From a virus, in the IMG/VR virus record IMGVR_UViG_3300028374_000012, positions 1 through 64,000 of that record: 64,000 bases of DNA, one strand, 5' to 3'. A model generated the notes under the pieces. The model searched no databases, had not been told where the DNA came from, and was given only the letters and a program-made list of their open reading frames with translations. Below are positions 15,708 through 22,998 of the stretch, piece after piece. The position numbers and the translations under genes are program-made. How positions within the stretch are numbered: position 1 is the stretch's first letter; each line of letters opens with the position of its first letter.

Positions 15708-18700
15708 TTATCTGTTAAAATTTTTGCTTTTATGGAAATCTTTAAATGCGTTGGTCTTTGGCTGTTTTAGTCCTTTCCTTATTAAGGATTTACTAATACT
15801 GGACCCGGCCCTACCTAAGGCTAACCCACCGACCAGTGCGGTTACAAATGGATTTTTTCTTACAGCGTTTTCAATATTATCTAAAGGCTCACCACGTCTT
15901 GCTTTTACTTCAGCTTTGGCAGAAGTATAATAGGATAGTGGTGCGGCTATAGCAAAACCAGCAGGGTAAGCTGCGGTTTTTTCATTTGTGTCGTTTATAG
16001 TATTTTTCTGCATCTTTGTTATTCCTAACGCTAGTCCACCACTAATTACTGGTGCCACCCATGGGTGGGTTTTTATAAACTTAGCAAAATGTGACGCGTT
16101 TGCAGTATTACCAAAAATTTGAGCGTATCCTGCATACATTGTACCAAGTAACGTAAAGGGTACAACAGGGTTTTTAACCCCGCTATCATTCGGCATAACT
16201 GTTGGCTCATCAAAAAATACCTTTTTAAGAAAACTTCGTTCTCTTTGTTGTGGTGTTTCTTCAATAGGCTCATCAAAATTAGCCTGCTTAGTAATTCTAT
16301 TAATAATTAATGGCTTTGTCAAGGAAATATCTGAAATTTCTTCTTTTATTTCATTGGCAATTTTTTCATTAGCTCTGTCAAGGGACACATTTTCAAGCTC
16401 TTCAGGCATTATAGTTGGATCTACAGAAAACACATGTCCAGTTTTTTCAAGCTCTTGTGCTAATTCATATTGGCCCGCTTTATACAAAGCAAGCTTTTGA
16501 AAATCATTTCTTGTTGGTAAAATTCTTAATCCTAAAAAAGTTGATAAAACATCGTTGATAGGATATTCTGCTAATTTTTTTAGAGTCTCATCTTTTATAG
16601 GTGCCTGGGAATTTAGTATAATATTTCCCGGATCTTCAACAATTCAATCTATATCGCCTTGAATCTTTTTATTGATCTGGCCGTGCTTATCTTCGGCAAC
16701 CTTTTCAATTCCAAAAACTTTCATAAAGGATGAGACGGGGTCAGCTGGAATTGTTACCAATGATATATCAAAAAAGGTAGGCTTGGTATTTATTGCATAT
16801 ACTTTCCGGCCATCACTTAAAACCTGATTCATTTGGTTTTTTAAATAAGAAGAATACTGTGCACGGGTCTTTGCTTTTTTCTTTGTTATAGAACAGTTGT
16901 GTACAATATATTCATTAGCTTGGTATGTTTCTGTTTTTGATACCTGTAAATTTTTAACTTTTAATTTTTTGTCAATTCTTTTATTTTCTATAATTGGTAT
17001 TAAAACATAATTGTCATATATAAAAATTCTAGAAGACTTCTTTGGTTTTTTTTGAATATTTATTTTGTGACAATAATCCTGCAATGAATATGAATCATAT
17101 TTAGAAATAAAACCAATATAAGTGTACATATTTTTAGACCAGGTTGTGTCTATTGTTCTTTTATGTAAAGAACATCCAATACCAATTGTAAAGCATAATC
17201 TACGTAAATCTCTAGATAGATACTCTGAAACAGTACAAAACCTAGAAGATTGCACCTTTGAATCAAATGAACCATCTCCATCCAGATAAGAGCCTAATAA
17301 AGATTTCAAAAATTCATCATTATGATCCAAAATTCTGGGGTGTATAAATTTACCGTTTGAATATTCTCCAAAATTTTCTAAAATTATATTAGCCAAATCC
17401 GATGAATAAGCCCTGCAAGATATTTCATATTTAGCTTCATTAATATAATATTTAAAAGTAGTCCCAATTTTTAAAGCACACTTTTTCAAATCTTGTACTA
17501 AATGATCTTCGTCTAATGAAAAAGAAAAGGACATACCAGAATACTTACCATTTCTTTCTTTTATAAAAGAACCTTCTGCTAACCAATATCCGAAAAATTT
17601 GGCGTGCTCTTTTGTATAAATATTCTTTCTATTTACGCTTCTATAAAATGCTAAGTAATCGCCGACTTTTAATTTTTCTGCTTCTTTAAATTCTAATTCC
17701 GCTTCTGGTAAAGAAGTGAAATAAATTTTAGAATTATTCCCTTTGTTGCTTTCCTTAAATTTATTAGAATCTATTGATAAAAAGGGGTGTTCCTTTGTTA
17801 CTTTTAATTCTTTGAAATCTCCAAATAAGGATAGTTGGTGATAAGAATCTACTTCCCTAATATTATCTTTGATTACTTCAGGTTTTTGGTGGTACTCATC
17901 ATAAACTTTATCACCTATATGAACATCTTTTAATTTTTTATAACCAGTTTCTGTATAAATATCAGTATCTAAACTAAAACAAACATCGTATGGAACTCTG
18001 CAATTATGTACGGCGTACCCCGCTTCAACTAAATAAGACTGGTCATCTTCTACTTCAAAATTAAAGACTGCTCCTTTAAATCCAATTTCTTCGATCTCGG
18101 AAATTGTATAATACCCGGCGGTTTTATTTTTAGGAAACTTAGGAATTATTAATTTATCTCCTTTTTTAACATCTTGTGCCTTAAGCCAAACTTCTTCTTT
18201 TTTACGAATTACTCGTATTGGGTGTTCTTCGGTACAGGTTAGATCTGGCATAGTTTTTCCAGGTACCTTAAAAGTTAAAAGGCGGCCATTATATATTCTT
18301 GGTTCTAGAGAGATAACTTTTTTAACATTGCCTAAATGTGTTCTAACCTCGTCACCTATCTTAATATCTTCAATATTTTTTAAAGTTCCATTATCTAATA
18401 CAACCTTTGTGCCGGCTGTAAAACATCCCATACTTGTTTTAATTACCTGTCCTTCTGAAATTTTTCTAAGTGTGTTAACAACATCGGGGTGATCTGCTTT
18501 TAGTTTAACAACAATTTCAACCCTCTTCATATTATCATTATAATGAGAGAAGATAACACGGCCCATTGATTTTTTAGGATCCTTGTTAACATGGTGCTTA
18601 TAAACATACCCACCGTCTTGAAAAGTGTGATGGCGTGCTTTTAAAGCTTCTTCGGGAAAGTAATCGCCATTCTTGTTGGAGCCATAATATTCCCCAGCAG

Positions 18701-18875
18701 TAAGTGCATTAATAAGTGCATAAAGATATCCATTCTCCCGCTCTAACGAGTTAATATAATTCTCAACTTCTGAAGCATACCCAGCAGTTTTAACCATACC
18801 TTTTTCTTTATCAAGTATGGTAAAAATACTAGGCTCTTGTGGATTCTGGATGTACTCTGCTACTTTTTCTATCAT
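15708..18875 (-). CDS. Prohead protease-like head protein precursor with two inteins, 1,055 aa
   Basis: One frame from 18875 to 15708, broken only by TGA(Trp) after 'IQGDID'. The exteins resemble phage head maturation proteases: 'HHVNKDPKKSMGRV', 'KADHPDVVNTLRKISEGQVIKTSMG', 'CRVPYDV' and 'CSITKKKAKTRAQY', then 'INTKPTFFDISLVTIPADPV'. Inteins occupy residues 151-291 and 299-660, leaving only the seven extein residues CRVPYDV between them. After splicing the protein is about 552 residues. The C-terminal 300 residues follow 'FGIEKVAED' and include two or three hydrophobic glycine-rich segments, so the protein may be a protease fused to an inner head protein. The family call is from motifs only. 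Confidence 0.7.
16896..17981 (-). mobile_element. Large intein 2 with LAGLIDADG endonuclease (362 aa)
   Basis: It starts at Cys299 ('CFSLDTDIYT') and ends 'EYIVHN' before Cys+1. Block B-like 'KELKVTKEHPFLS' is present. Two LAGLIDADG-type helices, 'FFGYWLAEGSF' and 'LLGSYLDGDGSF', both keep the acidic residue, so the homing endonuclease may still be active. Confidence 0.85.
18003..18425 (-). other. Mini-intein 1 without endonuclease (141 aa)
   Basis: It starts at Cys151 ('CFTAGTKVVLDNGTLKNIEDI'), has block B-like 'DLTCTEEHPI', and ends 'EAGYAVHN' before Cys+1. At 141 residues there is room only for the HINT splicing fold, so mobility must have been lost or must come in trans. Confidence 0.85.
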
Positions 18876-20508: not shown

Positions 20509-22998
20509 TTACTGCAAAATTTCTCCTAAATCATAAAACATTATAGCTGCAATAGAACCAAACAGGCTAGAATGTACAAAATCATCGGGACCTACGTTCG
20601 TAAACTTCTGTGTATTTTTGTCCTCATCATACTCAATAATAACGTTTCTAGCATCTGAGGCTAAATGCGAGATGTCCTCCCATCTTGGTAATCTTAATTT
20701 ACCGTTTTTTATTAATTCAAAATATTTATTCATTATATAATTTTTGTTCATTGTATATGCTCTCATTTTAGCATTATACTTGATGGGTTCTTTTTGTGCG
20801 CCAAGATGTTGAAAAGCTAATACCTTTTCTACGCCCAATCTTTTTCTAAATTCACTGTTTGGTGCTTCGCCCATTCCATAATCAGCAGCTAATATATTAC
20901 AATTTCATTCTTTAAATATTCTGGGAACTTCTTCATGAATAAAAGAATAGTCGCTTTCCTTGCCTACAAATCGTTTAGCATAAGCAACCTGAAGCCTTCC
21001 ATCTATTACTTGAATTATTGATATAACTGTGTAAGAGTTTTCACTATTTACCGGCCCATAATCAATTCCCATAATAGACGGCCGAGTTCTATAACCTTTA
21101 TGTGGTTTAGAAGACATCTCAAAATCTTCTTTACAAGCTGCCATTAATTCAGCTTTTGTAATCGGTATAGATCCACTATCATATTCTAAGCCAAGTGTCT
21201 CATTATAGAATAAGGCTGTAGAAGTATTCTCCATTTTATAAATAACATCCTTTTCCCAATCGACCCAGGGAGAGTGTGCAAAGTGAAGCAAGCAGACTCT
21301 GTATCCTTCCATATCCGGCATCTTATCAGGGTCGTCATATGTTGAGACCCATTCTCCTTTAGCTGTCCTTAAATCTAATTTCTCGCCGCATTTACTACAA
21401 GCTAATCCGGTTAAAGCAATATTATCTGGTCCTAAAATATTCCAGTGGTTGCAAGCATTACACTTAATTACATATTCATATTGAGTACTCTTGAACCATA
21501 AGTCTGCAAGGGTGCCTTTTGTTCGCTTAGGAGTTCCGGCATAAACTGACTTTTTAATTAAAGATCTAGACATTGTTTCTTGGATAACTGTGATAACGTC
21601 TTTCTTTAAATCCTGGCAGTTACCAACAACAACGGGACCTTTTGAGTCCTGGTGTCTTACAATTAAAGTACCGTTAGGAACAGTAGCACAATACACCTTA
21701 CCTTTATAATGCTCTGTAAAAGGTTCATTATTTTCATTATTAAGTACTCTTATACTTCTTTTTGAAACCTTTACAATGTACTCAGGATTCCCATACCTAG
21801 TTTTTTGGGTTATAACATTGCTGGGATTGCCCCCTATTAAACGAACTGCTTGAAGGTCATCTGCCAGTTGTTTGTCTTGGGTTCTAAAATGTGTCCATTG
21901 TACTGTAGCATTAAAAAAGTCTTCTGTGTAATCTCTATATTCAATAAAAGTTTCTAAAGGAATACGATTGTTCAGCCCCATTACATATTCTTTAAAATCC
22001 GGATCTGTTATAACATAAACATCTCTTGCGGAATCTTTCTTAGGTTTAACCCAATGTGATAATCCTAGATTTTCTAGGGATGTATGAAAGCTTGAAGAAA
22101 ATCTATTTTCTTTAACATAGATATGTATTTTACCAGTATCATCATCAACTTCCCCTCTTGCAAAAAACCAACCCAAAAATGTAAAAAAGTCTTTGGCCGG
22201 ATAACCCATAAATGTTTCCGGGGATTTCTTTTCTATAGGTTGTGGGTGAGTAAGCATCCGAAACTGCACATCAGTAGTTTCCTCAGCTTTCAAAAAGCCC
22301 CAGGTTTTTTCGTCCTGTATGTTTGCATATAAATTATGTCCGGGAGTTGTTTTTAAAAGCATGCTTTGGCTTTGGAAATTATAAACTTCTCCCTCGTAAT
22401 CTTTTTGGATAATACGGGTTGGCTCTTGAAATTCTAATTGTTGGTGAGCATTTACAGTTGCAAAAATATCATCTTCGGTAATCCGGGATACATTTTTTCA
22501 TCCCTTTTTTGTTAGTACTTCCATATCATCTGTAAAGCACTCATCAAAATAGTTATAATCTGCAGAAATACCACGAATACGATCAGCGTTTAATAAAGCA
22601 TACCTTAAGTTAATTACGCTACCATTTATAAATTCTTTTTTATAAACATTCTGAACAAGGCGGGAATCAATGTAATGGTTTTGGATTAACGGCGAGTTTT
22701 TAATAACCGGCTCTAATTTATCACGTGCTCATTCTTGAGTCTGGGCTACAGCGGGTGAAACATATAATTGTTTTATATTACCCTCCATTAAAGCTCGGGA
22801 CATAACTATATTTGCTAGCGATACGCTTTTCGATGTTTGTCGTGAGAACTTCATAACAACATCCTGGGCGGAGCTGTTATAGATTCTACGCATGTGGGGG
22901 TAATCATCCAGGGAAAGGGGCTTTCCCTGGAGATATAAGAAATTTTCTGAAAAGTCACTGAGCGTTAGCTCGACTGTTTCCTTTTTATTTTTTGCCAT
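20509..22998 (-). CDS. terL: Terminase large subunit with intein, 829 aa, three TGA(Trp)
   Basis: Three ORF pieces in one frame are joined by TGA codons (TQEWARD, KKGWKNV, FKEWNCN). The N-extein has a Walker A-like 'FSRQTSKS' (the usual Gly is Ser) and Walker B-like 'YNYFDE', directly followed by the intein. The C-extein resumes at 'CQDLKKDVI', then 'SVYAGTPKRTKGTLADLWF' and a zinc-ribbon ('CNAC' and 'CSKC'). The nuclease motif region is 'SIMGIDYGPVN' and 'CNILAADYGMGE'. Spliced length is 522 aa, normal for TerL. It cuts and pumps genome DNA into the prohead. bS21 overlaps its start by 34 nt. Confidence 0.9.
21619..22539 (-). mobile_element. Terminase intein with degenerate endonuclease (307 aa)
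   Basis: From Cys154 ('CFTDDMEVLTKKGW', Trp as TGA) to 'VVVGN' before Cys461. The usual penultimate His is Gly. Block B-like 'LLKTTPGHNLY' is present. One LAGLIDADG-like helix 'FFTFLGWFFARGEV' lacks the catalytic acid, so the endonuclease looks decayed. It is inserted right after the Walker B acidic pair, a known intein hotspot. Confidence 0.88.

Follow-up and report, generated by a model that had tools for sequence, protein, structure and literature searches.

The head maturation protease gene of the IMG/VR virus record IMGVR_UViG_3300028374_000012 carries two inteins that are only seven residues apart: a mini-intein without endonuclease (intein a) and a LAGLIDADG intein (intein b), placed on either side of the middle extein CRVPYDV. 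Both are documented below by motifs and profile matches, while their splicing is inferred from the intact catalytic residues. The window analysed is a stretch of 64,000 nucleotides (positions 1 to 64,000) of this 69,695-bp record, and the features of the gene are listed in Table 1. The precursor comprises 1055 aa, and 552 aa once spliced, when an in-frame TGA is read as Trp.

Anatomy of the gene and of its two inteins

Both inteins display the complete set of class 1 residues, namely Cys1, a TxxH box (TEEH in intein a and TKEH in intein b), a His-Asn end, and Cys+1. In a profile search of the ORF, Pfam Intein_splicing was matched over two stretches (1.2e-11, far past chance), with a further match to NCBIfam intein_Cterm (5.5e-4). 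Intein a scores above the cut-offs of Pfam Intein_splicing, Hint, and Hom_end_hint, is matched by the KlbA mini-intein 2jmz (1.9e-9), and meets the criterion for a mini-intein, as no LAGLIDADG motif was found between its Hint blocks. Intein b, for which no PDB match was found at the sequence level, is matched by LAGLIDADG_3 (PF14528; 5.5e-8, two stretches) and contains two LAGLIDADG motifs with acidic residues (YWLAEGSF and SYLDGDGSF); its endonuclease is apparently intact and may be homing-capable, cleavage and homing both being inferred. A Foldseek search with the model of the whole precursor retrieved PI-SceI, TliVMA, PI-PfuI, I-DmoI, and mini-inteins; this model is poor (pLDDT 59.5), and no geometry was drawn from it. 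The reading frame is open through both inteins, without stop or frameshift, and the ORF at 16644-18875 (minus strand, 743 codons) holds the N-extein, intein a, CRVPYDV, intein b, and Cys661 in that order.

Table 1. Position of the protease gene and its parts in the window.
Feature	Coordinates	Strand	Remarks
Intein-bearing head maturation protease gene, whole	15708..18875	-	TGA at 16644-16646 read as Trp
N-extein, aa 1-150	18426..18875	-	NKNGDYFP motif, His95, predicted catalytic Ser148 in SMG
Intein a, aa 151-291	18003..18425	-	141-aa mini-intein without endonuclease (HEN-less), CFTAGT...AVHN
TEEH box of intein a	18219-18236	-	
Middle extein CRVPYDV, aa 292-298	17982..18002	-	7 aa, 21 bp
Intein b, aa 299-660	16896..17981	-	362-aa LAGLIDADG intein, CFSLDT...IVHN
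TKEH box of intein b	17784-17801	-	
First LAGLIDADG motif, intein b	17565..17600	-	KFFGYWLAEGSF
Second LAGLIDADG motif, intein b	17265..17312	-	FLKSLLGSYLDGDGSF
C-extein	15708..16895	-	From Cys661 (+1 residue of intein b)
Degenerate Cys/His motif	16845-16895	-	CSITKKKAKTRAQYSSY
In-frame TGA	16644..16646	-	Read as Trp

The identification of the extein as a T4-gp21-like head maturation protease is supported by PHROG searches, in which 23 of the 25 relatives matched "head maturation protease", by a fold match to T4 gp21, and by the proximity of a gene for a major head protein. This gene lies downstream on the contig, and that for the terminase large subunit lies upstream. Other profiles gave weak matches only (the NCBIfam prohead protease/MCP fusion, the NCBIfam HK97 proheadase, and Pfam S78); the gathering score of Peptidase_S78 (PF04586) was not reached, with 4/25 relatives matching at a best E of 0.0075, and we describe the protease as S78-like only. 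No PDB match to the extein was found at the sequence level. The fold evidence rests on a predicted structure of an uninterrupted relative (L097; mean pLDDT 81), whose top PDB match was T4 gp21 (5jbl; probability 1.00, E only 2.4e-3, about 16% identity in the fold alignment), and which found prohead proteases among its matches in BFVD. Mixed fragment alignments, in which the inteins were misplaced, were not used for folding, and rows from phage records were left out. Besides this predicted fold, the extein shares with T4 gp21 and the Peptidase_S78 prohead proteases a conserved His and Ser, on which prohead proteases depend (PMC7411985). His95 and Ser148 (window numbering) are invariant in the alignments and, by analogy with prohead proteases, likely form the catalytic pair; catalysis itself is inferred.

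The first-pass annotation had placed inteins of 141 and 362 aa around CRVPYDV at 16896-18425 in a prohead protease-like gene, both starting with Cys, ending with His-Asn, and followed by Cys, and one of them having kept its endonuclease. All of this held: the coordinates stand, the terminal residues were confirmed by motif inspection, the LAGLIDADG motifs are present in intein b and absent from intein a, and the nature of the gene is borne out by the PHROG, fold, and neighbourhood evidence. One correction lies beyond those coordinates: the gene does not stop at the TGA at 16644, as the frame remains open to 15708. The stretch past this TGA resembles the C-terminal regions of homologues, and the 552-aa spliced protein falls within the size range of the relatives. 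An in-frame TGA shortly past the protease domain is also found in three relatives (L087, L098, and L099), and the loop of a fourth (L120) has a TGA where relatives have Trp (VP[TGA]DECSICGN). The genes listed between 2.5 and 39 kb contain 37 in-frame TGA and 82 TGG, versus 0 and 43 at 46 to 61 kb. Recoding of TGA as Trp, uneven along the genome or restricted to part of it, is the probable reading; a search for tRNA genes within the window found none. The TGA-bearing genes span positions 2507-39108 (minus strand) and include tail, terminase, protease, helicase, and ligase genes.

The C-extein opens with a degenerate version of a Cys/His motif, followed by FFDIS and then by the C-terminal region. 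Where relatives have CSICGNKA..YCxH, this gene has CSITKKK...YSSY. A connection between the inteins and the loss of this motif was considered and rejected, given that the motif has decayed in a similar way in the nearest relatives that lack inteins (L087-L092 and L097). Since these relatives share the degenerate motif, a possible zinc site was likely lost in the clade independently of the inteins.

A third intein is present on the contig, in the terminase large subunit gene (21619-22539, minus strand, 307 aa, CFTDDM...VVVGN followed by C). It displays a degenerate endonuclease, a Gly-Asn end, and an in-frame TGA (KKG[TGA]KNV), and the terminase frame appears to continue via another TGA at 20905 to 20509.

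Empty sites and intein insertion in relatives

Intein a is inserted two residues past the predicted catalytic Ser148 (site a) and intein b nine residues past it (site b). Homologues without inserts read continuously across both junctions as SMG-C-x-V-P-Y-D-x-C. They include proteins of Salmonella phage Arash (gp222), Vibrio phage D181, and Bacillus phage G (gp19), as well as Bixzunavirus and Gordonia phage proteins, one of which is annotated as a capsid maturation protease. The search of IMG/VR contigs returned 397 relatives, the best 80 of which were fetched, with extein identities of up to 65%. In a set of 120 loci, for which some contigs were fetched twice, 103 have SM[GAS] followed by exactly seven residues and Cys, representing 47 distinct motif strings (for instance locus L001: SMGCRVPYDVCSICNNKAKTRAQYC). 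The remaining 17 comprise 13 intein-bearing loci, the one with a TGA in its loop (L120), and three distant ones (L017-L019). In an unguided MAFFT alignment the gaps fell at the intein boundaries and the middle extein was retained. The first-pass annotation had stated that homologues failing to align across the two junctions would refute it; the outcome was the opposite, with 103 loci reading through.

The constant length of the loop in relatives suggests that a protease lacking it would probably be defective. This bears on the possibility that splicing is broken or goes wrong, with Cys151 joined to Cys661 and the loop lost, or with one intein dead, in a decaying allele or a defective genome. 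Such mis-splicing, which had been proposed together with the two inteins, is chemically plausible by inference, and the seven-residue extein is indeed unusually short; in addition, the terminase intein on the same contig has a degenerate endonuclease. Against this explanation, every splicing residue is intact in both inteins, the frame is open throughout, and 103 loci keep a loop of one and the same length, so that a loop-less product would probably fail. We consider it very unlikely.

A survey of viral contigs shows the protease to be a recurrent landing zone for inteins, which are inserted at five sites or more; four of these sites lie in the loop that follows the predicted catalytic Ser. 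Scans with junction patterns identified HEN-bearing site-a inteins in eleven contigs (L168-L178). Another site-a intein with a HEN is present in L191, and the C-terminal junction of a site-a intein was found in a Thermoguttaceae MAG. Site-b inteins occur in five contigs (L179, L182, L183, L184, and L185), inteins at site d (EYWG/SNxNGDYFP, the slash marking the junction) in six (L147, L186, L187, L189, L190, and L191), and an intein at site c (LDY/C) in L170. A single-query scan of the viral contigs with intein b found no relatives, these being recovered by the junction patterns alone. Two pattern hits (L180 and L181) were false positives, having a Ser-to-Leu change and no intein. Sites d, a, and b fall within the most conserved tenth of the protease and site c falls outside it (permutation p 0.007 for the four jointly).

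The fifth site, a' (SMGLN/C), is represented by LE23_71 of Eggerthella phage LE2-3, which carries an intein with similar Hint ends in the homologous protease loop (SMGLN/CETTTC). Unlike the a+b pair, this intein is single and HEN-bearing, and is located two residues downstream of site a. LE23_71 is annotated as "tRNA synthetase", and its intein was missed by the record annotation (L167, MW679026.1 36000-52000). The portal gene of the same phage, LE23_67, contains an intein as well.

Other double inteins were found in this protease. L170 (IMGVR_UViG_3300044959_000131) has two HEN-bearing inteins at sites a and c with 21 residues between them, and doubles at site d, within the NGDYFP motif, and site a are 92 residues apart in L187 and L191 and 83 in L189. 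No second a+b allele was found among the viral contigs surveyed, and the arrangement is thus known from one metagenomic contig. An assembly artefact that fused a site-a allele with a site-b allele could be proposed on this basis, the more so as no read data are at hand. The inteins are, however, only 21 bp apart, so that one short read would span the middle extein and both intein ends, and neither a stop nor a frameshift is present; an artefact is therefore regarded as very improbable.

Probable origin and inferred splicing and mobility of the pair

Intein b and the site-b intein of L185 form sister branches, both in the splicing-domain tree (support 91/94) and in the full-intein tree (100/99). 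Intein a is placed nearest to site-a inteins, without strong support, and is 46% identical to that of L168. A single clade of a and b was rejected (p-AU 0.034). The trees contain long branches, the exact place of intein a is unresolved, and the rejection of the joint clade is modest. The other site-a inteins measure 364-388 aa and bear a HEN, and it is because of these same-site inteins in other phages that we infer a loss of the endonuclease in intein a, in line with what the first-pass annotation had proposed. The pair is best explained by two invasions, in which each site received its own kind of intein, with intein a losing its endonuclease; the separate origins have moderate support. The alternative is a tandem duplication of one intein followed by endonuclease loss in the first copy, for which the similar ends of the two Hint inteins (Cys1, VHN) could be invoked. 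It is contradicted by the grouping of intein b with the L185 site-b intein (100/99), by the resemblance of intein a to site-a inteins, by the rejected joint clade, and by the occupation of each site alone in other phages, and is considered very unlikely.

Under the reading that we prefer, the protease gene was invaded twice, independently, by site-specific inteins at neighbouring positions. Each would splice with its own Hint module along the class 1 route (Cys1 thioester, transfer to Cys+1, and Asn cyclisation), in either order, yielding ...IKTSMG-CRVPYDV-CSITKK... with the expected junction peptide SMGCRVPYDVCSI. The predicted active-site segment would remain split until both inteins have left, and the protease should therefore be inactive up to that point. 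A break made at site b and repaired from the double-intein allele would copy intein a along by co-conversion, because only 21 bp separate the two. This explanation as a whole is likely, although its claims that the inteins splice, that the precursor is inactive, and that homing and co-conversion take place are all inferred, and no protein data exist. A published study argues that an intein without endonuclease, when its neighbour has one, "must rely on co-homing, if it homes at all" (PMC10643990). Neighbouring inteins of Haloferax with two active endonucleases impeded each other's homing (PMC10643990), whereas here only intein b has one.

A bolder reading holds that the pair moves as one unit through co-conversion and that the protease is a zymogen needing two splicing events, which would time head maturation; we find it improbable. 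In the related proposal of regulated activation, the paired inteins would be retained as a timer with two steps, holding back the protease until late assembly, for instance through redox or zinc sensing. Both insertions are indeed at the predicted active site, and the two inteins of mycobacterial DnaB are reported to splice conditionally (PMC6195587, PMC7360933). The inteins are, however, sporadic and absent from most relatives, as would be expected of mobile elements, and the timer remains unlikely.

Comparison with known double inteins

Two inteins at separate conserved sites of one protein are also found in the Thermococcus kodakarensis DNA polymerase (PI-TkoI/PI-TkoII) and in the Pyrococcus abyssi CDC21/MCM protein, with 85 residues between the former and 48 between the mini-inteins of the latter (PMC8966425). 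These archaeal doubles reside in replication genes, in contrast to the phage protease and the spacing of seven residues described here. In VMA, 20 residues separate the a site from the b site, but the two are occupied in different organisms (PMC2814812). The haloarchaeal MCM inteins a-d similarly occupy close sites in one conserved domain and include doubles in which a mini-intein accompanies a full one (PMC10643990), their host region being a helicase ATPase domain rather than a head protease. Phage inteins in terminase, helicase, ribonucleotide reductase, and methylase are likewise class 1 and often LAGLIDADG. In the open-licence literature searched, we found no pair as close as seven residues and no published case of an intein in a prohead or capsid maturation protease, which does not prove their absence. 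Compared with the published 48 and 85 residues, a spacing of seven is likely exceptional.

The seven-residue extein would be processed at both of its ends. Together, the relatives provide a natural series with no intein, with a, a', b, or d alone, and with a+b, a+c, or d+a, which is suited to tests of splicing order and mis-splicing, and of whether an intein without endonuclease survives by riding on its neighbour.
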